From: Craspedostauros australis
Lineage: Eukaryota; Bacillariophyta; Bacillariophyceae; Mastogloiales; Achnanthaceae
Length of the DNA: 64,000 nt
Direction of reading: 5' to 3'
Assembly: GCA_026770025.1 (NCBI GenBank)
Contig: JAMXDE010000006.1
Coordinates: 1,990,001 to 2,054,000 of the forward strand
A program made the translations under genes and the position numbers. The notes under the pieces were generated by a model. That model was not told the DNA's origin. It worked only from the letters and a program-made list of their open reading frames with translations, and did not search any database. Positions 1-60,582 of the stretch are shown one piece after another. Position 1 is the stretch's first letter; every line of letters begins with the position of its first letter.

Positions 1-236
1 CACGAAGTTTCTTGAATTGTCTTTGTCCATAGTGCCGATCCAATGCTATGTGGTTTGTTGTTGTCTTGTCTATGTAAGAAAGTTCTATGGAGCAATGCTG
101 AGGCAGGTCTTGAAGCAATGCTTTGTCGTAGCTTTTGCGAAAGCAATGACGATGTCACGGAGGTGATGAGCGTCAACTTTGACATGCATCTAGGCTGCAG
201 CTCGACCATTTTGCAACCAGACATCGCACAAATTGC

Positions 237-1520
237 ATGTTGCATCTAGTAATACATGTAGCACCAAACATGACACTCCCTGTTGTCGAAGATGCTGTGC
301 TCAAACTTTTGCTTCAGGAGATCCAGAACTCCCCGATCCCTCTCAACCTGATCAACCTACGAGAAGTTTGCAACTCTAACCCAACCGTGTACGGGCTGTC
401 TGGGACAACCAAGCGCAGAGCAGTCCAGAAACGCTTCTCCGACATCCAGAGGCTCACCCCGAAAGGATACGAGAAGCTGTTGGTGAGGCTTGGAATCGAT
501 CCAACCAGCAAGACCAAGATCCGCACTCCGGTGACAGCGACTACTGCAACACCAGCGACTACTGCAACACCAGCGACTACTGCAACACCAGCGACAACCT
601 CCTCAGCCGCTACCGCCACCGCTGTTGCCGCCGCTGCTGCCATCATACAAAACACAGATGAAGACGACCTCACCTCCGCATTTAGCCGTCTACGGGTAAC
701 TTCGCCACCATCCACAAGAGCGACTCCCAGCTTCTCTCGCCCCCAACATTCTTGCGACAATTCTCTTCAATCACCTCTACTTCGCCCATACACTACAATG
801 ACCGCAAGAGCTCTGTTCACGCCACCTGGTGCTGTGGACACTGCCAGCATCTTCCCATCCGCGGCAAGTCTCGAATCGCTTGAAACGCTCGTTCAAGAGC
901 AGCAAGGAACACGCAATCGCCCATTCATCACGATGGTCAGTGTGGACCATCCTGAGCGCAACCGTGAGTTCAACGTGCAACACGTGTCTGGCATCAACCA
1001 CAATGATCACACGTTGAACGCTTTCCATATTTCCAAATCCATCCCGCCACCAGACTTCAATGAATGGAAAGCAACAATCCCAGCAACCAAAACAGAGTTG
1101 GCAGGCCGTGTCATCCAAATTGAGGGCCCTTCTGTTGACTTCTGGACCCGTGATCGTGAGCGGTACCACGAAGACCTGGAGTGCGGTGCCACCAAGCTCG
1201 CCCACCAGTCCACACAAGTCGCAATCGACGAAGCGCAGGGACGCAGCACTTGTTTCTATTGGTTGGTTTTTCCAGATGTTGTCCGTCTTGACAACACTGT
1301 GTTCTCCAACAACAACGCGACGCTCAAAGAAGACCACATCCCACTCGAAGCAGATGCGAACGAGTTCGGATTTGATGACGGCAGTGTGCTGACTGGGTTG
1401 ATCATTTATTGGAGAATTGGTTTGGATGGTGGCGTTCGCAACACCAAGGACAAGACTAAAACGACCGCTGGTGGGCTCTTCAAGAAGAAGAAGAGCAAGA
1501 AGAAGAAGACGGGCGCTTGA
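237..1520 (+). CDS. Transposon accessory protein X (copy A, intact)
   Basis: A 427-residue protein of unknown function; an alternative start at Met12 gives 416. An N-terminal module (about residues 12-92) ends in a basic helical stretch. A Thr/Ala/Pro-rich linker follows, encoded by an 18-bp tandem repeat at about 537-600 and poly-Ala near residue 130. The C-terminal domain (about 230-405) carries the motif PERNREF, then GPSVDFW and a FYWLVFP hydrophobic strand. The protein ends in a Lys-rich tail that could be a nuclear localisation signal. Both domains have counterparts in the gene at 53897-55171. No catalytic motif is recognised. The position beside a transposase and a KOW-like gene in both elements makes it a transposon protein rather than a host gene. 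DNA binding by the N-terminal part is a guess. Confidence 0.8.
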   Translation: MLHLVIHVAPNMTLPVVEDAVLKLLLQEIQNSPIPLNLINLREVCNSNPTVYGLSGTTKRRAVQKRFSDIQRLTPKGYEKLLVRLGIDPTSKTKIRTPVTATTATPATTATPATTATPATTSSAATATAVAAAAAIIQNTDEDDLTSAFSRLRVTSPPSTRATPSFSRPQHSCDNSLQSPLLRPYTTMTARALFTPPGAVDTASIFPSAASLESLETLVQEQQGTRNRPFITMVSVDHPERNREFNVQHVSGINHNDHTLNAFHISKSIPPPDFNEWKATIPATKTELAGRVIQIEGPSVDFWTRDRERYHEDLECGATKLAHQSTQVAIDEAQGRSTCFYWLVFPDVVRLDNTVFSNNNATLKEDHIPLEADANEFGFDDGSVLTGLIIYWRIGLDGGVRNTKDKTKTTAGGLFKKKKSKKKKTGA

Positions 1521-1654
1521 TTGCATTCTGTTTGTTGTGGTTAATTGATAATAAGACTAATTGAGGTTACTTGTGCCTTGTTGAGTGTTGCTGGTTGTCT
1601 TTCCATCTGTTTGTTGATTCGCAACGATCGCGCAAGTTCGTTGTGTTCTCTGAT

Positions 1655-2071
1655 TCACTTCTCAAAGTGGACCTTTCTCCATTTCGCCTTGCTGCCGAGA
1701 CTCTCTTGACGACTGTGAGCAGCCGTCATCTTGGCGGTCAGGATGGTGCCGACGTCTTCGGTAAATCCACTGATCGAACACTCTGCAAGCATTTTCACCA
1801 AGTGGTCAGCTGCTCTCTCGATGTCCTCGTGCTGTTGGAAAATTGCCTCGCCGTATGTTTCAGGCTTGGTGTGGCATGGTGCGACGCTCGTCTGGCTGAC
1901 AATGGTGTGCTTGTGTTTTCCTTGGCCCAAGTCCACAAACACGTACACTTTCTTTGGTGTTGGCTCTTTGGATGCGTCGAGCCATCCAACCTTTCCTTGG
2001 TACTTTCCTGCGCAGAAGCGCACCTCCCTGCCAAGCTTGGTCTCCGTTTTCGCTGCTGTCACCTTGCTCAT
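1655..2071 (-). CDS. KOW-like transposon accessory protein (copy A)
   Basis: A 138-residue protein from the ATG at 2071 (MSKVTAAKTE). The frame is open further upstream but without another ATG. Near residue 20 it has a GKYQGKVGWLD motif like the KOW fold of nucleic-acid-binding proteins such as NusG/Spt5 and ribosomal L24/L26. A helical C-terminal half follows. The homologue at 53116-53538 shares the motif as GKYKGHIGWVN and the later stretch EAIFQQHEDIE / EAVLQQHPDID. It is divergent to the transposase, sharing a 620-bp upstream region. RNA or DNA binding is inferred only from the KOW resemblance. KOW proteins are not, to my knowledge, standard parts of Harbinger elements, whose usual second gene is Myb/SANT-like. 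Confidence 0.75.
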   Translation of the reverse strand: MSKVTAAKTETKLGREVRFCAGKYQGKVGWLDASKEPTPKKVYVFVDLGQGKHKHTIVSQTSVAPCHTKPETYGEAIFQQHEDIERAADHLVKMLAECSISGFTEDVGTILTAKMTAAHSRQESLGSKAKWRKVHFEK

Positions 2072-2694
2072 GGTTGGGTATGTGATACTATGGGGAAGCA
2101 ATACCAGTATAGAGTGACTCGCGGTTGTTGGATGAGAGTACCAGCTGTGGTCTGCTGCATTTCGTCGAGCTGAGTCGCGTCGCTGCGAGCTCTTGTTCTT
2201 GTCAAGACGGATCAGTCCTGGCAACGTGATTGGCGATACTCACATACTAGCAATCGATAGCAGCAACACATGGCCTTGTGTGTGTACTTGTGTGTGATGA
2301 CTAAATCGTCGCCAACTAACGGCCAAGCGGGTCTACTGTAGAACGAGAAGAACTCAACAACTATGACAACGACTACTACTCTTGTTGTTACTATGGCTGC
2401 CATCGTGATGGTTCCAACTGCAATTCTGAATACGGTTGCAAGGACTGGTACTATGTCGCTAGTCCGACTGTGGCTACTGTTTCTATCGCTGCAACAGCTA
2501 CTGCTGTTGCTACTGTTACTGATGGTACTGTTGCTACTGCCGGTGTCATTCGAATGGCGACTGCTGCTGCACTACTGCGACCAGTTCCAAGAACAAGCAA
2601 GCGATGGAACACAACAGGAATTGGCTTGATTTGCTGCAGCCGATGTTGATCAACCACACTCACAAATCAACAGTTGAGAAGCAACACTCACATC
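2072..2694. promoter_or_regulatory. Divergent promoter region, KOW-like gene / transposase (copy A)
   Basis: This non-coding stretch separates two divergent transposon genes. Much of it (2370-2560) is a run of CTA/CTG/TTG-type trinucleotides that opens frames on both strands, but no frame resembles the other copy. The equivalent region of copy B is 52744-53115. No TATA box or initiator can be assigned with confidence. Confidence 0.4.
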
Positions 2695-3603
2695 ATGTTA
2701 CTGACCACCACCGACGTCATGACCATTGGTCTCCAGTACACTGGCCAACAATTTCAGAGCGCCGCATCCATCGACCAACGCACAAAAGCATTCCGTCAAC
2801 ACTACGGGTCTTCACCACTGGACCTGTCAGAAATGTGGTTTGACATGAATTCAGACTCATTCGATGGTGCCAAGCTCTCAGCCAAAGAGAAGTCACCCTC
2901 AGGATTCAAGCTCTTCATGATGGCACACCACTTCCTTTGGACATACCCAAAGAACGCGAGCATCCTGGCATCGCGTTTTGGTGTGTGTGAACGATACTGC
3001 CGTGGAGAGTCATTGTGGAAATGGATTCGCCGCATCGCCTCGCTGAAGTCCAAAAAAATTGTCTGGGACCCAGCACTCGGCGCGGACAATTCGCCAGTGT
3101 TCGCCATCACTGTGGATGGAACAGATTTTCGCACTTGGGAGAAAAAGCACCCAACGCTCCCCATCGACCGCAAGTACTGTTCCCAAAAATTCAACCACGG
3201 AGCAGTGAAGTACGAACTCGCGATGTCGGTTTTTGGAGCAAAGTGCGTGTGGATCAGTGGGCCACACCGAGGCGGCGAACACGACATGACAATTTTCCGG
3301 AGTGGTCTGATGCACAAGCTGAAGCCAGGCAAACTCGCGATTGCCGACAGAGGGTATGCCACCAGCAGACCACAAGAACGCAAGCTCCTTTCTCTCCCGG
3401 ACAAAATGGACTGCAAAGAGCTTGCCAAATTCAAAAGCAGAGCTCGTTGTCGTCATGAGACGTTCAATGGACGGTTGAAGTTCTTCAACAGTCTTGGCCA
3501 TACATTCCGACACGGAAGCGAGCTGCATGAACATGTGATGGTCGCGGTTTGTGTGATTGTTCAATATCAGATGGACAACGGGTCTGCAATATTCAATGTA
3601 TAG
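2695..3603 (+). CDS. Harbinger-like DDE transposase (copy A)
   Basis: A 302-residue transposase from the ATG at 2695 (MLLTTTDVMT). The motifs fit the DDE_Tnp_4/PIF-Harbinger type. The first Asp is in FAITVDGTDFR. A strand-turn GPHRGGEHDMTIFR follows, with the second Asp in IADRGY. The Glu is in RCRHETFNGRLK, followed by the family's C-terminal helix FNSLGHTFRHG. All three catalytic residues are present. The homologue at 51655-52743 is similar throughout (YGSSPLD, HPTLPIDR, FNHGAVKYE). It would bind the element ends and cut and rejoin them in the nucleus. The gene is intact and ends in TAG 3603, about 500 bp from the element end. Confidence 0.9.
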   Translation: MLLTTTDVMTIGLQYTGQQFQSAASIDQRTKAFRQHYGSSPLDLSEMWFDMNSDSFDGAKLSAKEKSPSGFKLFMMAHHFLWTYPKNASILASRFGVCERYCRGESLWKWIRRIASLKSKKIVWDPALGADNSPVFAITVDGTDFRTWEKKHPTLPIDRKYCSQKFNHGAVKYELAMSVFGAKCVWISGPHRGGEHDMTIFRSGLMHKLKPGKLAIADRGYATSRPQERKLLSLPDKMDCKELAKFKSRARCRHETFNGRLKFFNSLGHTFRHGSELHEHVMVAVCVIVQYQMDNGSAIFNV

Positions 3604-3850
3604 TTGATCAGCAGTAGTAGTTGTGAATTAAATGGATAGCACCATTACTTATTAATGTAATCAACCCTACTCTACTCTCTCTCATTGAGTCAAGTGCACA
3701 TCCACAAAATGAGCGCAAGCGTGTCGGTTTCGCACTCTGTGTGACTGTGTCTGTTGTTACCACGACGCACGTTTTTGTTTTCTTCATTCTTTCGTCTGTC
3801 CGTCGCCAGGGGCTGTGCTGAATCAGCTGCGGGTGTGTGTCGGAGAGAAT

Positions 3851-3990
3851 CCTGACATTCCCGACATTCCCGACAACGCACCCGACATTCCCGACAACAC
3901 ACCCGACATTCCCGACAAAGCACCCGACATTCCCGACAAGACACCCGACATTCCCGACAAAACTCCCGACATTCCCGACATTCCCGACAA
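3851..3990. repeat. 21-bp tandem array near the right end of Harbinger-like copy A
   Basis: About six units of 21 bp built on CCCGACATTCCCGACAA, with starts near 3881, 3902, 3923, 3944 and 3965. A 9-bp sub-repeat CCCGACATT is visible at both edges. Because 21 is a multiple of three, several frames stay open on both strands and produce Ile-Pro-Asp or Asn-Val-Gly peptides. These look like by-products. The array lies about 130 bp inside the terminus, where subterminal transposase-binding repeats are expected. Confidence 0.85.
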
Positions 3991-4119
3991 TGACACATGG
4001 CAGCATGATACTATCAATTTAGACGTGATGACCAAATAAATATCAAACATCACTGAAACTGTCGTTCGTATTTAAGTCATGAGGTTTTGGGGTCATACTC
4101 GACATTTTGCCGCGTGTCC

Positions 4120-5076
4120 CTGGAGACCACAATGAAGGTGTGGCCATCCAGAAGCCAGCTGCTGATGGAAAGCAAGTGCAGCGGCCACAAGTACTACGCA
4201 CTGGGGTACAAGTACTGCAAGGCTAAGGTACTCTGCTTCGTCTTTTCCGCGGGAGCTGGGCATGCAGGCTGCGGGGTGCCGTATTTGTCGAAGTGGATCT
4301 TGGACGATGGGTGCCCCATGACAAAGAAAGTGGATTGGCCGAGTGTCGCTTCGAAGTACTTCGAAAGCTGCAACAAGGTCGATGTCCACAACCAGGCTCG
4401 ACAGGACATCCTCGGTCTGGAGAGAACTTGGCCCACACGCGACAGATACTTCAGGCTTGTCACGACTCTCTTTGGGATAACCGTTGTGGATGCATGGAGG
4501 GCATACCGATGCCACTTGGCGGGCAAGCACCGACACAAGAATGTGCCTCTCATGGATTTCGTGAACATGATGGTCAAAGACATGCTCCACAACAACGAAG
4601 CCCCTGATCCACCAAGCTCATTTGCCAGGATGAGAAGCAACCAGCCATCGGAAGTGCAATGCGGTGGCAATGGTGGCTCCTTGTCTTTGTTGACAACTGA
4701 CAGTCCAGCCCATGCGACAACACAGGTGGCCCGTGCGACGACACAGGTGGCTGAGTGGCCCCGAGCAGACTTGATCAATGGCCACCACTTGGTAAAGCAC
4801 CCAGGTAGAGTCCGGAACGGGAAGATTGACCATACGAAGCAGGGGATCGCCAGGTTCATGACGAGAGGGAAACGAAGCAGATGCTGTGTGTGCACGAACT
4901 CGTCAAGGTACCATTGCCTGAACTGTCGAACAGGGTCTCCAGGCCAAACTGTTTGGTGCTGCGAAATGAAGGAGTACGACGGAATATTTCGACGATGTTT
5001 CGAAATCCATGCAGAGAAACATGCAGGATCAAGGTCGCGTAGTTCCACACACCCAGACACCATGACAGATAGTTAA
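4120..5076 (+). pseudogene. piggyBac-type transposase, 3' part, cut by the Harbinger-like insertion
   Basis: About 318 residues of the C-terminal part of a piggyBac (DDE_Tnp_1_7) transposase. Evidence is the segment VASKYFESCNKVDVHNQARQ, a variant of the family's YNxxMGGVDxxDQ region, followed by WPTRDRYFRLVTTLFGITVVDAWRAY. A C-terminal cysteine-rich module (CCVCTNSSRYHCLNC, later CCEMKEY and CFEIHAEKH) matches the zinc-binding tail of these proteins. The 5' part and the upstream catalytic Asp residues are missing because the frame is entered from the transposon terminus at 4119. The remaining frame is uninterrupted to TAG 5076, so the break appears recent. The start near 4087 is inside the other transposon and is not genuine. 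Confidence 0.75.
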
Positions 5077-50883: not shown

Positions 50884-51280
50884 GTCACTATCGCATGTCA
50901 ACAGGCGATAACTCCCTGCTGACACCTTTGTCATGAGTCGATGCGGGCTGTGACGTGACACAGGACCCGAGGGAGCTGGATGCCATCACGGATGGGAACA
51001 CAAGAATCCAATCACAAACCAGGGACACCCGGCAAAAAGCAACGGAAACGCATTTCGACTAGTACGACTACTTTGACATCCAAAACCAATTTTGTCACTC
51101 AGACACAAGAAGGCCGCAATTGACATTCCACGATTGGCGAAGAACGAATCTCCTTTCGAAGAACTTAGTGAGAAACCCCGTTGGACCTATTTCGGAGAAA
51201 CAAAACGAGGCATTGATGCCGCTGGCCTAATTGATCGAGTCCCGTCTATACCGATGACAAACACTTTCTAATTCTAAATA

Positions 51281-51420
51281 AATCGAATGACGGATAAATA
51301 AATCGAGTGACGGATAAATAAATCGAATGACGGATATTTAAATCGAATGACGGATATTATTTTCGAATGACGGATAAATAAATCGAATGACGGATATTAT
51401 TTTCGAATGACGGATAAATA
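51281..51420. repeat. Left 20-bp array of Harbinger-like copy B
   Basis: Seven units of exactly 20 bp with the core CGAATGACGGATA, starting at 51281 and every 20 bp thereafter. The second half of each unit is either AATAAAT or TTATTTT, partly alternating. Same orientation as the right array. Confidence 0.95.
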
Positions 51421-51654
51421 AATCGCACCATTTTGTCACTCGTGACCCAAGAAGACAAGGCTGGGAAGTGATCGAACTAATCAAGTGCGCTTGGTCACAC
51501 AAACAAACCACGAAATGGTGGCTCTCCTCGACTCTGCCCTGCTCTGGACAGATCACAACAGAGACGAGTGTGGAATTGGAGTGTTGTTGTCTACGTTTTG
51601 ATTTGGTTACTATTGTAGAATACATGTGAAGCAGACTGTACAAAGAGTTCGTGG

Positions 51655-52743
51655 TCACACCGCGAAGAGTCCTGATCCGTTGTCCATTTGGTACTGTATG
51701 ATGACACACACTGCTTCGAAAGCATGCATGTGACACTCGTACCCATGGCGAAAAGTGTCGTCCATCGACTTGAATTTCTTGATCCGCCCGTTGAAGCTCT
51801 CGTGGCGACATCGTGCCCGGCTTTTGAACTTGGCGAGCCGCCACGAGTCGGTACCGCTTGGAAGTGACAGTTGTTCGCGTTGAGCCGCCACGCTGGTTTG
51901 GTATCCACGATCGGCGATGGCAAGTTTCCCTGTTGCCAGTTTGTCCATGAGACCATGACGGAAAATTGCCCGGTCGTGGGTGCCACCAGGAAATGGCCCA
52001 CTGATCCACACGCATTTGGAAGAGAAGACAGAAAGCGCGATCTCGTACTTGACCGCGCCGTGGTTAAACTTGTGTGAGTACTGCGTGCGATCAATTGGCA
52101 GAGTCGGGTGCTTTTTTTCCCAAGTGCGGAAATCAGTGCCATCAACCGTGATGGCGAAAACAGAGGAGTCGGGGTGGTCCAGAGACGAATCCCACACGAT
52201 CTTTTTGGTCCGAAGCGCGGCAATTTTTTTCACCCATCGCCAGATGTGTTCTCCTCGTGCGTATCGCTCACACACACAGAACCGAGACGCAATGACGCCG
52301 GAGTTTTTGGGATAAAGCCACAGAAAGTAGTGCGCAATCATGAAGAATGTAAAGCCCTTCATCGTTTTATCTTTTGTGTTGAGGTTGGCCTCAGGAATCT
52401 CTGTGTGACAAAGATCAAACCAGATCTCGGCGATGTCGAGAGGACTGGAACCGTAGTGCTGACGAAAAAGTGCAGCAACAGTGTCGTTCGATTGCCGAGC
52501 TGATGGTTGGACCCCAACCAACTGGAGCCCTGTCATCAGCACATCATGAGGACGCAGGAACATTGTACGGCTGATGTTGTTGTTGTTGTTGCTGTTGCTG
52601 TTGTGATTGATGATGAGATGCTGATGCTGATGTTGTGATTGATGATGCAGCTGTTGTTGTTGTTCCTTCATGCAACGTGTCTGCCACAAGAAGGGACGAT
52701 CTCGTCCGCGAAGAGACCAATCCTGCAGCAACAAGCACTTCAT
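51655..52743 (-). CDS. Harbinger-like DDE transposase (copy B)
   Basis: 362 residues if started at ATG 52743; the homologous core begins at Met 52563 (MFLRPHDVLMTG), with another ATG at 52671. The N-terminal extension is rich in Gln/His/Asn. Catalytic residues are kept: VDGTDFR (Asp), GPFPGGTHDRAIFR, IADRGYQTS (Asp) and RCRHESFNGRIK (Glu). It is like the transposase at 2695-3603 from YGSSPLD to the end and stops at the same place (TGA here, TAG there). The stop lies about 630 bp from the element end, as in copy A. Confidence 0.9.
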   Translation of the reverse strand: MKCLLLQDWSLRGRDRPFLWQTRCMKEQQQQLHHQSQHQHQHLIINHNSNSNNNNNISRTMFLRPHDVLMTGLQLVGVQPSARQSNDTVAALFRQHYGSSPLDIAEIWFDLCHTEIPEANLNTKDKTMKGFTFFMIAHYFLWLYPKNSGVIASRFCVCERYARGEHIWRWVKKIAALRTKKIVWDSSLDHPDSSVFAITVDGTDFRTWEKKHPTLPIDRTQYSHKFNHGAVKYEIALSVFSSKCVWISGPFPGGTHDRAIFRHGLMDKLATGKLAIADRGYQTSVAAQREQLSLPSGTDSWRLAKFKSRARCRHESFNGRIKKFKSMDDTFRHGYECHMHAFEAVCVIIQYQMDNGSGLFAV

Positions 52744-53115
52744 CAAACACGGCACAACGACTTGGCGACACAACAGTCATGGATCGAGGCCCAGTTAGCG
52801 AATAGTGATGGCATGTGCTCAGAACCAAGAAGTATCTTCACGCAAAATGAGAGTGCTTTGTTTGTCGATGTGAATGATGGTCGTGATTTGGCGACTGGAC
52901 CCAGACACGCGAAAATGACGAAACAGTTTCGTGTTGCGTTGTCGTGAAGCACCACGGCAGAAAGGAGAAGACAGCGAGCGCTGGTACTGGCGTTTCCGAT
53001 GTTCGCTGATTGATCAACCAACACATCCAACGACAAGCCCACAACATCACTCATCAGATCACAACACCAACACCACAACAACAACAACAGCAGCAGCATC
53101 AATTGCAGCATCACC
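52744..53115. promoter_or_regulatory. Divergent promoter region, transposase / KOW-like gene (copy B)
   Basis: Position equivalent to 2072-2694 in copy A, between two divergent starts. The last 60 bp before 53116 are ACA/CAA-rich leader. No core promoter element assigned. Confidence 0.45.
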
Positions 53116-53538
53116 ATGGGCACGAAGGGAAAGCTCATCGCCATCACTGGAGGAAAGTACAAGGGTCACATTGGCTGGGTGAATGTGGACAAGAAGCCAA
53201 CAAAGTGCCAGCGTCCTGTGATCGTGAAGATGGATGATGGATCGCTGAAGGAAACCAAGCTGAACAAGGACAACGTGAGGCGCCGCAAGGCACCCGCGAA
53301 CCTCGCCGAAGCTGTGTTGCAACAGCATCCAGACATTGATAAAATGATGGACAAACTTGCGCGTGCGCTTTGCGAGTGCAACGTGTTTTCTGATCATGAC
53401 ATTCCCCACATCAATGCTGTGTTCTTCGATAAGTTGACGACAGAAGGCAAAAAACTCCATGCTCTTGGTGATGACGCGGAGTATCGCACTGTCGACAAGA
53501 GCGATTTGCCGATCAAGCACGACGGGGCGATGAAGTAG
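53116..53538 (+). CDS. KOW-like transposon accessory protein (copy B)
   Basis: 140 residues from ATG 53116. KOW-type motif LIAITGGKYKGHIGWVNVD at residues 8-26, a Lys/Arg-rich middle, and a helical C-terminal half (AEAVLQQHPDIDKMMDKLARALCECNVFSDHDIPHINAVFFDKL). It matches the protein at 1655-2071 over nearly its whole length. Both keep the pattern of an N-terminal small beta module plus helices. Nucleic-acid binding is likely by analogy with KOW proteins; a role in transposition or in translation of the element is open. Confidence 0.85.
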   Translation: MGTKGKLIAITGGKYKGHIGWVNVDKKPTKCQRPVIVKMDDGSLKETKLNKDNVRRRKAPANLAEAVLQQHPDIDKMMDKLARALCECNVFSDHDIPHINAVFFDKLTTEGKKLHALGDDAEYRTVDKSDLPIKHDGAMK

Positions 53539-53896
53539 TCTCCAATCGCACCAACAGACACACATGCAGACCCATCAATTTAGTGTCACAGTATCTGCAA
53601 TGAGACACGACTGTAGCCCAACATAAGGCGATCACAAGCCACATGCTCTAGTCAAGTTACTTATCCTGCAAAACACCACACGTCTCAATCATGTACATGT
53701 TAAGTAGAGCCCAATACCGTTTGTTCGTTTTCGTGGAGGTTGACAGGTTTTATCATTGCGCGCCTGCGACAATAACGAAGAGGGAAACGAGAAGGCGCAA
53801 GACGTGTTGGTGTGCGTTGTACAAGGTACCTAAATAGTGTTTGTGTTATGCTGCTAGTTGCCGTGATTGTTCTGTCCGTGTCGTGAGTTCGCCAGC

Positions 53897-55171
53897 TTAA
53901 GCCGTTTCGTCACCTTTCGCGGTCAATCTGCTCAAGTAGAAGCCAGCGTTCTTCTTCTCTGGTTGGTGCGTCACACGACCACCTGCCAACACGAGCTTCC
54001 AGTAGGCAACCGCACCATGGATCGTGAACGCTTGATCACCTTCGGTGACCACCATGTCACGCACAGAGCAGTTGGTCTCAATCGCGTTGTCACCATGTTT
54101 GGTGGTCAAAGCGAGATCAAGGCTGATGTCAGACGGAAAGATCAGCAACCAGAAAGAGAACTTGCGAACCGGAGAGGCTTGGACTTTCGCGACAGTGGCA
54201 GAGAGGGCGGTCTGTGCTGTTCCTGCGGCTTCGTCGTGGCAGTAAAATGCCTCGTCGCGACACATCCAGGCATTCACGCTTGGGCCGCGGATCATCAGAG
54301 AACGATGCGCAATGCCAGGAATGTGAGTTGGGATCTCAGCACTCCACAAGTTGACATCCTGCAGGGCGCAAGGAACACGGACATGAAAGCCTGCGAAATT
54401 GCCATTTGTGACGCCGATGTCGTTGATGAAGTCAACAAGGAATTCGCGATTGCGTTCTGGAGACTCGTGGTTGATCGCGACAGTGTACGGGTTCGTCGCT
54501 GTTCCATTTTCCTTCCGCGCGAACAAGGCGTGGAAGGCGTCATCGCTTGGGCGACTGGTGGAAGAGTTGTTGTCTTCGTCGCTCATGGACGACTCGGTGG
54601 ATGCGTTTGATGCGTTCGATGCAGACCCAACGCGATCTGGGAGTTCGATCTCTGCCTTCGGAGGCTTGGTTTGTGGACTCCCGAAGATACCAAGTGGCTT
54701 GGCGAGGCCGTCAGAGTTGAACTTCATGTTTGTTGTTGGTGCTGTTGGCTGTGGATAGGCAGGGTTGGCATTCGGCTTGTGAGGTGGCGACACACGAGTT
54801 GGTGCAAAACGGACAAAGGGCGTTTGTAGTGAGAGATCACTCACACGACCACAGAAATCGCCAACACAAGGATGGGCGTTCCAATGATGCGCCAATTCAG
54901 CAAGAGATCCTCAGCCTGGTGTGATGTCGTTGTTTCGGAGAAATGAAAAGTAGCTCTTGGTACTCCGCCTCTTCAGGTTATCGAACACCCGCCTGCTGAA
55001 GGCACGAAGCTGATCACCAGGTTCACCGAACAGAGCTGGTTGCTTGTCACAGATGTCTGTTGCGAATCTGATCTGGTTTCGCGTCTTGCCTGAACGCTCG
55101 ACAGCAGACGCAATCTGCATAGACAGAGACTTACTCGTGCTTGGGAGATTGTCGACGGTGTACATTTGCAT
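53897..55171 (-). pseudogene. Transposon accessory protein X (copy B, one in-frame TGA)
   Basis: A single frame from ATG 55171 (MQMYTVDN) to TAA 53897, 424 codons, is interrupted only by TGA at 54911-54913. The first part (SLSMQIASAV to NNDITP) matches residues 25-90 of the intact protein at 237-1520. The second part keeps PERNREF, GPSVNAW, FSFWLLIFP and AVAYWKL. Lengths agree (416-427 against 424), so the gene is whole apart from that codon. No GT-AG intron that removes the TGA is evident. Either this copy is inactivated or the stop is read through. TGA is an ordinary stop elsewhere in the window. Confidence 0.8.
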
Positions 55172-55857
55172 TGCTCGTAGATTGTGAGCCGATGGTGGTT
55201 GTTCGAAGCGCGTGAACACAAGTGTTGCGATGGCGCTGTGTTTGCCTGATGTGATGCCATAGCAGCACTACTCTATATTGGTACACACAACACAACATTG
55301 TCTTCATCCATTGAGCAGGTTGGTCTGTTTCTCTTTCAGATGTTTGGCGGCGTCCGAATGATCAGCGCGGTCTCCAGAATGGATGCGCGCCAACATACAA
55401 ATCGTCTGCAGCCACAAAGTCTAGAGAGAGCAATGGTGCTACAATCAGATGCATAGTATGTAGATAATGACTTGCTTTGTTGCACATATTGCAGTTGTTT
55501 GTGTGTGTCGATGCTTGCGAGGAGCTCTTGCATTTTTGAACATTGTGCACGCTACGTTGCACCATGTGAGCCTCTAGTTTGTAGCCTGTCCGGCACGAAA
55601 TTCAAACACGACTCCGACAAAACGGTCACAACATCGCCAGCCGGCCGTTCTATGCTGATTTGTGTAGCAGAAGAGGTCTGTAGGTGATATTTCAACGAAC
55701 AACAACAACGGCATCCGGCCCAGCGTGCGAAAGCAATGACAGTACTAGTAGATATAAGGCGGGGTGTATGAGTGTGTTCATTTCTCGTGCCGTTCTTGAT
55801 GTGTACGCTGAGTAATAGAGAAGCTGCCATCATCATCGTTGGCGCACAATTCAAACA
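55172..55857. promoter_or_regulatory. Divergent promoter region, X / Y (copy B)
   Basis: 686 bp between divergent starts. No gene supported. A short frame at 55472-55687 has no motif. Confidence 0.4.
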
Positions 55858-56387
55858 ATGGCGGCAAATGCACCAAAGTTCAAGTGGCGCAACAGCGCAG
55901 CCAGCGCAATGATGAAAGATGACTTTGACGTTGGAGGTGTATTCCATGCCGAGGATTTGGCACCTGCTACAGCATGGGAGTACTACAGCATGTTTCCGCA
56001 ATTCAAAGTGGACGGGATGACGCAGGCCGTCTTCGAGAAATACTTCAAGACGTTCCACGCACGACTAAAAAAAAACAGCGAGAACGCTCTGCGCGCGAAG
56101 AGCGCGCATTGGACCACGACCGTAACATTCACCCCGAGGAACGGCGCAACAACCAAGGCAGACCAGTGATGCACTTGTCCCCTGCGAAAGATCTGCTTTC
56201 CTTTGACGTCAAAATGAACAAGCACCTCCACATGACACCATCTGAATTCCAGGCAAGTCGACCAGAGTATGCTGCTTTCGGTGCAAAACAGTTCAAGCAG
56301 CACATCTACCAGCAAGTCAAGCTGCAGAAGTTCAAGAATCATCTCGCAATCAAGCGCAAGCAAGCACAATCAATGACCAACAAATGA
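55858..56387 (+). CDS. Transposon accessory protein Y, probably made by -1 frameshifting
   Basis: The start ATG 55858 opens a 103-codon frame (MAANAPKFKWRNSAASAMMKDDFDV) ending at TGA 56169. A second frame, -1 relative to it and open from 55974 to TGA 56387, continues with protein-like sequence (LSPAKDLLSFDVKMNKHLHMTPSEFQASRPEYAAF). The two overlap at a run of nine A containing the slippery heptamer A AAA AAC in the right phase. A -1 shift there gives a 176-residue protein with 73 residues before the shift and a basic Lys/Gln-rich end. No domain recognised. A single-base deletion or insertion in the A run would look the same. It lies between X and Z in the 7-kb transposon. Confidence 0.6.
56070..56108 (+). 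promoter_or_regulatory. Candidate -1 ribosomal frameshift signal
   Basis: Slippery heptamer A AAA AAC at 56070-56076, in the correct zero-frame phase. After a 13-nt spacer comes a hairpin with a perfect 7-bp stem TGCGCGC/GCGCGCA (56090-56096 and 56102-56108) and loop GAAGA. This is the classical arrangement; the spacer is somewhat longer than the usual 5-9 nt. Confidence 0.5.
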
Positions 56388-56510
56388 TAAACACTGACTA
56401 GTAGGCAATAGTAGTTCTTCAATAATAGACTCTTCCTAGTGTTATTAGACTTGTGTGATTCTTCGATGTATCCACGAATGGAATTTTCGCTCGTTGTTGT
56501 GGTGGTTGCG

Positions 56511-57125
56511 TCAATTGCTCGCGTTGTGGTTGTTCGTCGTTGTGAGTTTCGCTGTGTTGGCCATCCCCCACACCGAGGACACTGCGAACACGAGAGTTTT
56601 TGCGACCACGATGAGGTGCACGAACAACAGGAATGCAGTGTATGCCAACAACCACGAGATGTGGCTGCACATGAAACAGATGCCTGAGAGGCAGCCATCA
56701 AGATAGAACGCAACGAGCGATTTCATGTTGACGAGCTTGTCAATTGCTGCAATAGCAGCACGAAATGAGAGCTCGGCGTTGTTGTCCTCTTCGCTCTTGA
56801 AGTGTCCCCTTTTCAGGTCGAAAAAGTGGCCATGAGGGAGACCAAAGAAAGCAGGGCTAATCACCTTCATCGCGTTGTTGAACTTGGCATGCGTGTTGAT
56901 AGGAGCCGGACGATTGCCAAAGTTGAGGTTGCTGTTGTGCTGGGTGGGGGTGAGCGATGCGCGATGGCTGACAGTTGCGGTTGCTGGGGTGTGACCGAGG
57001 AAGTTGTTGCAAGGCAGAATGGAAGAGGAAGAGGGAGATGGAGCCATTGGAATGGCATTGCTGCCACTCGTGCCAGCAGCCTTGCTTTGTTGGAAGGAGG
57101 AAGGATGGGGCGGGGGGAATCTCAT
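56511..57125 (-). CDS. Transposon-encoded membrane protein Z
   Basis: 204 residues, ATG 57125. A Pro/Ser/Asn-rich N-terminal half without predicted structure is followed by an amphipathic stretch (SFRAAIAAIDKLVNMKSL). Two hydrophobic segments near the C-terminus (about 133-155, VAFYLDGCLSGICFMCSHISWLL, and about 158-185, AYTAFLLFVHLIVVAKTLVFAV) make an integral membrane hairpin likely. A membrane protein is unexpected in a cut-and-paste DNA transposon. No family recognised. Its counterpart in copy A would lie left of the window, so conservation cannot be tested here. Confidence 0.6.
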   Translation of the reverse strand: MRFPPPHPSSFQQSKAAGTSGSNAIPMAPSPSSSSILPCNNFLGHTPATATVSHRASLTPTQHNSNLNFGNRPAPINTHAKFNNAMKVISPAFFGLPHGHFFDLKRGHFKSEEDNNAELSFRAAIAAIDKLVNMKSLVAFYLDGCLSGICFMCSHISWLLAYTAFLLFVHLIVVAKTLVFAVSSVWGMANTAKLTTTNNHNASN

Positions 57126-57560
57126 GGCGATGGCTTCTTGTGGACGGGAAGATTTGTGAGCAATGCACAGAGAAACACAATGCGACTACTCTTCGAACAG
57201 GGAGACACCTTCACTGATGCCGCAAAGCCAAGTGCAGAACAGACGAAACGAGCATGCCATCACTCTGGTCTAAAGCGACATGGGAAGCAACACATGCGTG
57301 CATCGGTTTGTATTGCGTTTGTATCGCGTTCGCTACACTATGTTGATACTTGATGTTGTGAAGTCGTTTCGCATGGTTTGGCCGTCCCAAACCAACGCGC
57401 GACCGCCATGTGTCGCTCTCATCGCGCCCGCCTTTGCATTGGTGGCCTGTTGGTCTGTTCCCGCTTTGTCGATCCCGATGTGGCGAGAACCTTGTTTAGT
57501 CGATCTAGTCAGTTGAGCCAAGTGGCGTGTCCCGTGAAGACAAAGGAATGATAGCTAAAT
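57126..57560. other. Non-coding stretch upstream of gene Z
   Basis: No gene supported; presumably the promoter of Z. A 78-residue plus-strand frame (57280-57516) has no motif. Confidence 0.4.
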
Positions 57561-57720
57561 AAATCTAATGACGGATAAATAAATCGAGTGACGGATATTA
57601 TTTTTGAATGACGGATAAATAAATCGAATGACGGATATTATTTTCGAATTACGGATAAATAAATCGAATGACGGATATTATTTTCGAATGACGGATAAAT
57701 AAATCGAATGACGGATAAAT
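57561..57720. repeat. Right 20-bp array of Harbinger-like copy B
   Basis: Eight units of 20 bp with the same core CGAATGACGGATA and the same two alternative halves as the left array at 51281-51420. The two arrays are in direct, not inverted, orientation. Confidence 0.95.
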
Positions 57721-57980
57721 AAATCATAGATAAAGTTTTCGCACGACTGCTCGGGATTAAATCAAGGCACATTATTGTAGAGTCATTTTCGGAGTTTCTC
57801 CATGATTCCCCCATAAATGAAACTGTGAGATATGACCCACGAAGAGTTCCAACGAACGAAAGTTGGAGTCGAGAACTTTCTTATCGCAGAAAAAAATGTC
57901 ATTTCCAAGATAACAAGTTTTGATTGGCTGGGTCAGTTATTGCCATGATGGACTAATTCGACCCATCTTGCCGGGTGTCC

Positions 57981-58296
57981 CAGAGAGGGATGCGAACAAG
58001 AGGAGGCAAACACAAACAAAAAGAAAGAGAAGTAGAGAACGCCATGCAAACACGACACCAAGACAACAACACACACCACTCGATCCCATACTCGAGCACA
58101 TCAACAACAGACATCGAATCGCCACTCATATTCATCACACAGCGTACGATAGGATGATCGCACGAATACAAGCTAGTGCTGACACACGATCGATATCTCG
58201 GCCATCGGAGGCTCGAATGACACACTTCCTCGACAACCAATCCAACACCAATCGTCCAACGTCAATCGTCCAGTAGCCATCGACCATCCTCTCGAA
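57981..58296. other. Intergenic region between the transposon and the ankyrin gene
   Basis: Presumed promoter and leader of the ankyrin gene. Begins with the CAG target duplication of the transposon (57981-57983). No gene seen. Confidence 0.5.
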
Positions 58297-60582
58297 ATGA
58301 CGAATGTTACGAACGAACAACTCCTTGATGCTGCCAAGGCAGGCGCTTTGTTGGTGTTGAAGAAATGGAAGAAGCAGAACAAGAAGAACAAGAAAGAAGT
58401 TGATATTAATGTTCAGCACGAGAATGGTGTCACTCCCCTTCATTGGGCATGCAAACATGGTCACCTGGAGTGTGTCAAGTACCTCATTGGATCATGCAGG
58501 GCCGACGTAAACTGCAGAGACAACAATGGTTCCACTCCCCTCCATAAGGCATGTTACAATGGCCGCCTGAAGTGTGTCAAGTACCTCATCAAATCATGTG
58601 GGGTCGATGCCAACTGCAAAGCTGCCAATGGTTGGGCTCCCCTTCATTGGGCATGTATTAACGGCCACCTGAAGTGTGTCAAGTACCTCATCAAATCATG
58701 TGGGGCCGACGCCAACTGCAAAGAAGATGGTGGTGCCACTCCCCTTCATCAGGCGTGCATGAACGGCAAGCTGGAATGTGTCAAGTACCTCATCAACTCA
58801 TGTGGGACCGACGCCAACTGCAAAGAAGAAGATGGCTGGGCTCCCCTTCATTGGGCATGCATTAACGGCCACCTGAACTGTGTCAAGCACCTCATCGACT
58901 CATGTGGGGCCAACGCCAACTGCACAAACAACAATGGTGTCACTCCAATTCATGTGGCATGCTCCAACGGCCACCTGCAGTGTGTGAAGTACCTCATCGA
59001 ATCATGCGAGGCTGATGCCAACTGCAAAGAAGAAGGTGGTGCCACTCCCCTTCATTGGGCATGCTCCAACAGCCGTTCTGAATGCATGAAGTACCTCATT
59101 GTATCAGCCAATGCCGATATCGACATCCAAAACAACTACAACCAAACACCGCTCGATTTGATCGATGCAGAACATCAGACCGAAATCAAGAGATTGATCA
59201 TGAAGCGTCCCGGGCACCTCAACCCACAACTGCACCAACGCTTACAACAGAACGAGCCAGAGAATGAACAGCTGCAACAACAGTTGGGGCAGCAGTTGAA
59301 GCGGAAGGAGCAAGAGAATGAACAATTGCAACAGCAGGTGAAGCGGAAAGAGCAAGAGATTGAACAATTGCAACAACAGCTGGAACGGGAGGAGGCCGAG
59401 AAGAAACAGAAGGAGCAAGAGAATGAACAACTGCAGCAACAGTTGGGACAGCAGTTGAAGCGGAAGGAGCAAGAGATTGAACAATTGCACCAACAGCTGG
59501 AACGGGAGGAGGAAGAGAAGAAACAGAAGGAACAAGAGAATGAACAGCCACAAGAACAGTTGGGACAGCAGTTGAAGTGGAACGAGCAAGAGAATGAACA
59601 ATTGCGACAACAGTTGGAACGAGAGGAGGACGAGAAGAAGCAGAAGGAACAAGATAATGAAGAATTCCAGCGACAGTTGGGACAGCAGTCGAAGTGGAAG
59701 AAGCAAGAGAATAAACACAAACACAGTACCTACAAGAGGACCAACATCAGCATTGGAGAAGACCGGCTCAGATCCTTCCAAACCGAGAACAGGGCAGACA
59801 CCATCTTCTTGTGTGGACAGGGCGACCAACAACAAGCAATCAAGGCAAACTCCGAAGTCCTCATGATGACCGTCCCAACCATTGAGACACTGATCAACTC
59901 TGGAATCCAAAATCAATGCGCTCACGATGGCGCTCACGATGGAGCTGAACCCATCCAAACAACCATCCCTCTTCCCAACCTTCAGCCAAAATACGTCCGA
60001 CACGTCCTCCAATGCATCTACACAGGTGAGATGTCCTTCAACAACAACACTCATGACGACAGTGACGATGATGACGCAAACCAGCCAACTCCAGCCCTCA
60101 CTGGACAGGACGATCTGCAACAGTTGATCCTTGTGGCCAACAAGTTCGGCCTCTGGCAACTCAAGCTTGTTCTTGAAGAAGAGTTGGCCCACAAGTATCT
60201 CACAGAGGACAGCGTGATAGATGCGTTGATATTTGCCGATCAACAAAACTGCACAATATTGAAGGATGCAGCAATGAGAGTGGCAGCTGAAAGTGAGAAA
60301 GATATGTTCACTCATCCAGATTTCAGCAAGCTGATTCTACACCAGCAACTGATGACGGAGACCCAGGTGTTTTGCAGTGGAAGAATGGAGAGTGATGGCA
60401 TTGATGACAAGTACAGCCACATGTCCATGATAGAGCTGTACAAGGCTGTCGATGAGGACGAGAGTACAACACAAGTGGACTCATACATGAATCGGGCGAC
60501 ATTGGTGCACTTCGTGCGCTCTATGAGTACCAAATCGTCCAAAGCAATCGAGACGGACGGCGCTGTTGAACAAGAGGAATGA
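58297..60582 (+). CDS. Ankyrin repeat - coiled-coil - BTB domain protein
   Basis: 761 residues, single exon. After a basic N-terminus there are about eight ankyrin repeats (residues 40-300), each close to TPLHWACxNGHLxCVKYLIxSCGADANC. Their near identity at DNA level, including fixed Cys residues, shows recent internal duplication. A Gln/Glu/Lys-rich coiled coil follows (about 305-475), itself built of repeats such as KRKEQENEQLQQQL. The C-terminal part (about 485-635) is BTB-like: ADTIFLCGQGDQQQAIKANSEVLMMTVPTIETLI, then YVRHVLQCIYTGEM. A BACK-like helical tail (LVANKFGLWQLKLVLEEELAHKYLTEDSVIDALIFADQQNC) closes it. By domain this could be a Cul3-ligase adaptor. Target unknown. Confidence 0.88.
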   Translation: MTNVTNEQLLDAAKAGALLVLKKWKKQNKKNKKEVDINVQHENGVTPLHWACKHGHLECVKYLIGSCRADVNCRDNNGSTPLHKACYNGRLKCVKYLIKSCGVDANCKAANGWAPLHWACINGHLKCVKYLIKSCGADANCKEDGGATPLHQACMNGKLECVKYLINSCGTDANCKEEDGWAPLHWACINGHLNCVKHLIDSCGANANCTNNNGVTPIHVACSNGHLQCVKYLIESCEADANCKEEGGATPLHWACSNSRSECMKYLIVSANADIDIQNNYNQTPLDLIDAEHQTEIKRLIMKRPGHLNPQLHQRLQQNEPENEQLQQQLGQQLKRKEQENEQLQQQVKRKEQEIEQLQQQLEREEAEKKQKEQENEQLQQQLGQQLKRKEQEIEQLHQQLEREEEEKKQKEQENEQPQEQLGQQLKWNEQENEQLRQQLEREEDEKKQKEQDNEEFQRQLGQQSKWKKQENKHKHSTYKRTNISIGEDRLRSFQTENRADTIFLCGQGDQQQAIKANSEVLMMTVPTIETLINSGIQNQCAHDGAHDGAEPIQTTIPLPNLQPKYVRHVLQCIYTGEMSFNNNTHDDSDDDDANQPTPALTGQDDLQQLILVANKFGLWQLKLVLEEELAHKYLTEDSVIDALIFADQQNCTILKDAAMRVAAESEKDMFTHPDFSKLILHQQLMTETQVFCSGRMESDGIDDKYSHMSMIELYKAVDEDESTTQVDSYMNRATLVHFVRSMSTKSSKAIETDGAVEQEE

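Follow-up and report, generated by a model that had tools for sequence, protein, structure and literature searches.

The stretch of DNA analysed here (the window) comprises 64,000 nucleotides of Craspedostauros australis contig JAMXDE010000006.1. At positions 51023-57980 it holds a single DNA transposon of 7.0 kb that carries five genes. The transposon is bounded by 14-bp terminal inverted repeats (TIRs), GGGACACCCGGCAA at 51022-51035 on the plus strand and TTGCCGGGTGTCCC at 57968-57981 on the minus strand, and by the two CAG copies of a 3-bp target duplication at 51020-51022 and 57981-57983 (neither assigned to a strand). The outermost bases of the repeats lie at 51022 and 57981, and the first G of the left repeat doubles as the G of the left CAG. 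Since this first G and the last C are common to repeat and target, we take the duplicated site to be CAG and the element proper to be 51023-57980. Its genes encode, from left to right, a DDE_Tnp_4 transposase (51655-52773, minus), a KOW-like protein of 140 amino acids (53116-53538, plus), protein X (53897-55171, minus), protein Y (55858-56387, plus) and protein Z of 204 amino acids (56511-57125, minus). The start of the transposase is uncertain; the ATG start of the copy on contig C40 equals about position 52671. The original prediction had proposed a five-gene Harbinger-like element at this locus, and the TIRs, CAG duplication and fixed gene order bear this out.

Related copies were sought in the 74.8-Mb, 90-contig genome that contains the window and fall into families, with the window element in family A. 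In families A and C, 15 insertions were two-ended, and the same CWG stood on either side in 14 of them; this was also true of all five family B insertions read at both ends (a sixth is without its left end), giving a matching CWG in 19/20 for the three families together. A CWG was present at each end in all 20, including L035, a derivative on C2 (about 266672-268241) in which CTG flanks one end and CAG the opposite one; it is either a recombinant of two copies or carries a mutated duplication. The C29 copy, single-ended copies and a split copy on C13 were left out of these counts; the outer ends of the C13 copy lie more than 20 kb apart and do not match (CAG and CTG). A paralogous empty site was found within the transposase gene (51964-52012, minus), the counterpart of a nested 1.7-kb derivative on C13. 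The undisturbed gene, in the window and in C40, reads ...CCATTTCCTGGTGGCACC... with a single CTG, and the C13 derivative duplicates this CTG.

Copy counts are lower bounds, with 40 of 177 candidates from the whole-element DNA search scored. This search revealed full-length copies of the window element on C40 (92%) and C29 (88%) and pieces of another copy on C13. Because their flanks are common to both, the C40 and C29 copies were scored as one insertion on two contigs; the C29 copy is riddled with single-base insertions and deletions. At least 20 shorter copies fuse element positions 1-677 to about 5998 onward, two of 20 without the far end. The C40 frames encode 341 (transposase), 139 (KOW), 424 (X), 175 (Y) and 204 (Z) amino acids. 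Family C, an element of 7.6 kb found on C2 and C10, keeps the same order with proteins of 302, 136 (from the aligned ATG), 434, 176 and 202 amino acids, and its two copies agree at 97.7-100% per protein. Frames had been described as intact, and those of C40, C2 and C10 are indeed open throughout, with no internal stops; in the window copy, by contrast, an in-frame stop interrupts X at 54911-54913 and Y spans two frames with a 2-bp difference near 56067. On the strength of these two lesions, the family A copy in the window has probably lost its autonomy.

Family D (C1 and C13) retains the gene order in broken copies, in which the transposase match stops at residue 69 (C1) or 162 (C13) and X (C1) or Y (C13) is split. 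The right part of a family B element occupies window positions 1-4120 (plus), where the right TIR ends at 4120 and the left part, beyond the window, reads as N; it contains X (237-1520, plus), KOW (1655-2071, minus) and the transposase (2695-3603, plus). The first three genes had been described as common to both window elements. Family B in fact has four of the genes, transposase, KOW, X and Y, but no Z match was among the matches listed for it. Insertion of one copy into another is known here, as on C13, and the five genes might be thought a chance composite of one element within another. Order and orientation are nevertheless alike in families A, C and D, with four genes in B, and the outer ends carry matching duplications, which makes a chance composite extremely improbable. 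A second family of deleted derivatives was also observed at 18 places (C15:785879, C25:208579 and others), with a short open frame, of 94 amino acids in 17 of the 18, that corresponds approximately to Z residues 35-109.

The transposases of the two window elements match PF13359 with E values of 5.5e-12 (the five-gene element) and 1.6e-9. Candidate catalytic residues D211, D288 and E325 (numbered in the 372-amino-acid frame) are invariant in all five aligned transposases. A DDE_Tnp_4 transposase with a DDE triad places the element in the PHIS superfamily. A more distant element at C21:35845-42951 (L048/L040/L049; 7,107 bases), with CTG on both sides, encodes a transposase 33-36% identical, together with Y, the X domain and a small acidic frame. 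Its terminal repeats are identical over 611 bases and contain a GGGGGGACACA-type minisatellite; this element is likely recent. A further family about 40% identical in the transposase (20 places, e.g. L052 and L053) has several in-frame stops in its copies, mostly TGA, and one in its Y frame. Either it was amplified after decay or it is read in an unusual way.

The KOW-like protein matches KOW5_SPT5 in four of five aligned members, all below cut-off (best E 0.005) and two of the five being near-identical family A copies; its best PDB match is ribosomal L24 (E 0.1). At each of 20 genome places, KOW lay beside a transposase match or within an element remnant, and the same was true of X at its 20 places. 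Neither was a recognisable host gene at any of these places in this genome, which supports the original prediction. Protein Z has a hydrophobic membrane-type stretch at residues 149-189, and a strongly hydrophobic stretch of about 30-60 residues lies near the C-terminus in families A, C and D. It could be argued that KOW, X and Z were picked up as passengers with no role in transposition, anti-silencing cargo being one example. Epigenetic modifiers, SET and TET/JBP proteins among them, are encoded by other transposons (PMC12730594), family B manages without a detected Z, and X was not found in four of six distant Harbinger-type loci read. However, KOW and X accompany this transposase down to 28-31% identity, and the N-terminal domain of X is present in the other two distant loci (E 1.4e-6 and 2.4e-5), which favours an integral role over that of recent cargo. 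We regard passenger status as unlikely.

Y is the most widespread partner seen here. At 45 of its 62 places a transposase match lies no more than 8 kb away, and Y was matched in five of the six distant loci. Its profile match has E 4.9e-13 over 165 columns. The original prediction that three or four new genes had replaced or extended the usual partner is not upheld, given the reach of Y and of the X N-terminal domain into these distant elements. Y accompanies far more distant transposases too, and only KOW and, from the copies seen, Z look as if they were gained specially by this lineage. Neither X nor Y matched a Pfam family above cut-off or, with significance, a PDB sequence. Scanned against Pfam at the sequence level, the four accessory proteins yielded no Myb/SANT match.

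Y is a small protein in which W and F positions are conserved, and given its wide distribution it could be a Myb/SANT-type ORF1 protein too diverged for Pfam. The element would then be a NuwaI or Harbinger transposon with the usual partner and KOW, X and Z as extras. Against this, none of six Y proteins matched a Myb family at E up to 10, in scans whose filters drop most matches above about 0.1. PF13837 and PF13873 had zero genome matches, in searches lacking a working control, and PF00249 gave 35 Myb matches, the nearest of the 25 places compared being 30 kb from a listed transposase. We give this reading somewhat less than an even chance. An equally tentative proposal is that the Nuwa-like elements of diatoms lack a Myb/SANT partner altogether and rely on a transposase and orphan proteins, Y and in some of them X, to which one lineage added KOW and a membrane protein; transposition would then use a four- to five-protein system unlike the two-protein Harbinger one. 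It is weakened by the confirmation of the X domain in just two of the six distant loci.

Selection on the accessory genes had also been predicted, and change was mostly synonymous in every gene tested. The accessory gene set is maintained by purifying selection. The element thus has four accessory genes under selection, more than the single helper usually ascribed to the superfamily. Between the window element (51022-57981) and the other full copy compared, L017, divergence is about 0-3% across most of the transposase and about 33% at 57772-57921, and synonymous divergence (dS) is 0.07 in the transposase versus 0.23 in X. Because divergence is so uneven along the element, mosaic copies formed by recombination are suggested.

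The mechanism that we propose starts from what the copies display directly: the ends are defined, the target is duplicated over 3 bp, some copies are full-length and others deleted, and the five genes keep a fixed order and are under purifying selection. It is modeled on Ping/Pong and Harbinger3_DR, where the transposase depends on an ORF1 protein. The DDE protein would cut and paste the element. Y, the best candidate for the ORF1 role with X next, would bind the ends and bring the transposase there. X would serve as a second helper, common to part of the distant elements, and KOW and Z as lineage additions, the former nucleic-acid-binding and the latter membrane-anchored. Deleted copies would be moved in trans; their scatter with matching duplications suggests that the ends suffice in cis. 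We consider this mechanism as a whole probable.

By target site the element resembles NuwaI, one of the closest known systems. According to Han et al. 2015 (PMC4482050), NuwaI is reported only from animals, duplicates CWG, averages about 4.5 kb with mostly two open reading frames (transposase and Myb/SANT) and has TIRs of 12-61 bp that usually start with GGG. The element shares with NuwaI a transposase of the same superfamily, CWG duplications (those 19 insertions and the empty site), a size of several kilobases and short G-rich TIRs; its 14 bp fall inside the NuwaI range, and they start with GGG only if the G common to CWG is counted, otherwise with GGA. It differs in its diatom host, its length (7.0 kb, or 7.6 kb in family C) and its five genes without a recognisable Myb/SANT, so that the two-ORF layout does not apply. 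Canonical PIF/Harbinger elements belong to the same superfamily and, according to PMC2836001, duplicate TWA, need at least one helper (a single Myb/SANT protein in Ping/Pong and Harbinger3_DR) and have internally deleted copies that are mobilised. In contrast, the present element has CWG at both ends of all 20 two-ended insertions, four other genes and no Myb/SANT ORF1 match in the scans above. Because target site, short TIRs and superfamily agree with NuwaI, yet NuwaI mostly has two ORFs and is described from animals only, we assign the element to the PHIS superfamily and call it NuwaI-like with respect to its target site, but a member of neither group.

Other candidates were rejected. Spy elements are not known to make a target duplication, whereas this element has one, and five genes rather than one. 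For ISL2EU, which has a YqaJ protein, the Pfam scans of the element proteins gave no such match. TET+ PHISTA and HarbingerS, as described in PMC12730594, are also related to Harbinger and also have additional genes, encoding a TET/JBP dioxygenase or a SET methyltransferase; the third PHISTA protein is likewise without Myb/SANT; PHISTA, however, duplicates TA rather than CWG, and the proteins scanned here had no TET/JBP or SET Pfam match. The host is an alga, as predicted, and 88 genome matches to the silicon transporter PF03842 identify it as a diatom; 32 of these are nearly complete, and the family seems to have expanded greatly. We take the TP in Harbinger4_TP to stand for Thalassiosira pseudonana. 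Harbinger4_TP has 3-bp duplications and belongs to a lineage near Nuwa (PMC12730594), and T. pseudonana has Harbinger-like elements (PMC2806351); compared by description, these are possibly the nearest named diatom relatives. Novelty is lowered, because extra-gene Harbinger relatives and diatom Harbinger-like elements are already known from these sources. Directly adjoining the element is a 761-amino-acid open frame (58297-60582) with ankyrin-like repeats and a coiled coil by eye.

In conclusion, Harbinger-type transposons are a classic example of a transposase that depends on a single helper. Four further genes, conserved as a set in an algal lineage whose usual helper domain is unrecognisable, would mean that such a sharing of tasks can be built anew. 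The natural intact, deleted and partial copies allow the role of each protein to be tested, and a diatom element that duplicates CWG would extend the known range of that type of target site past animals.
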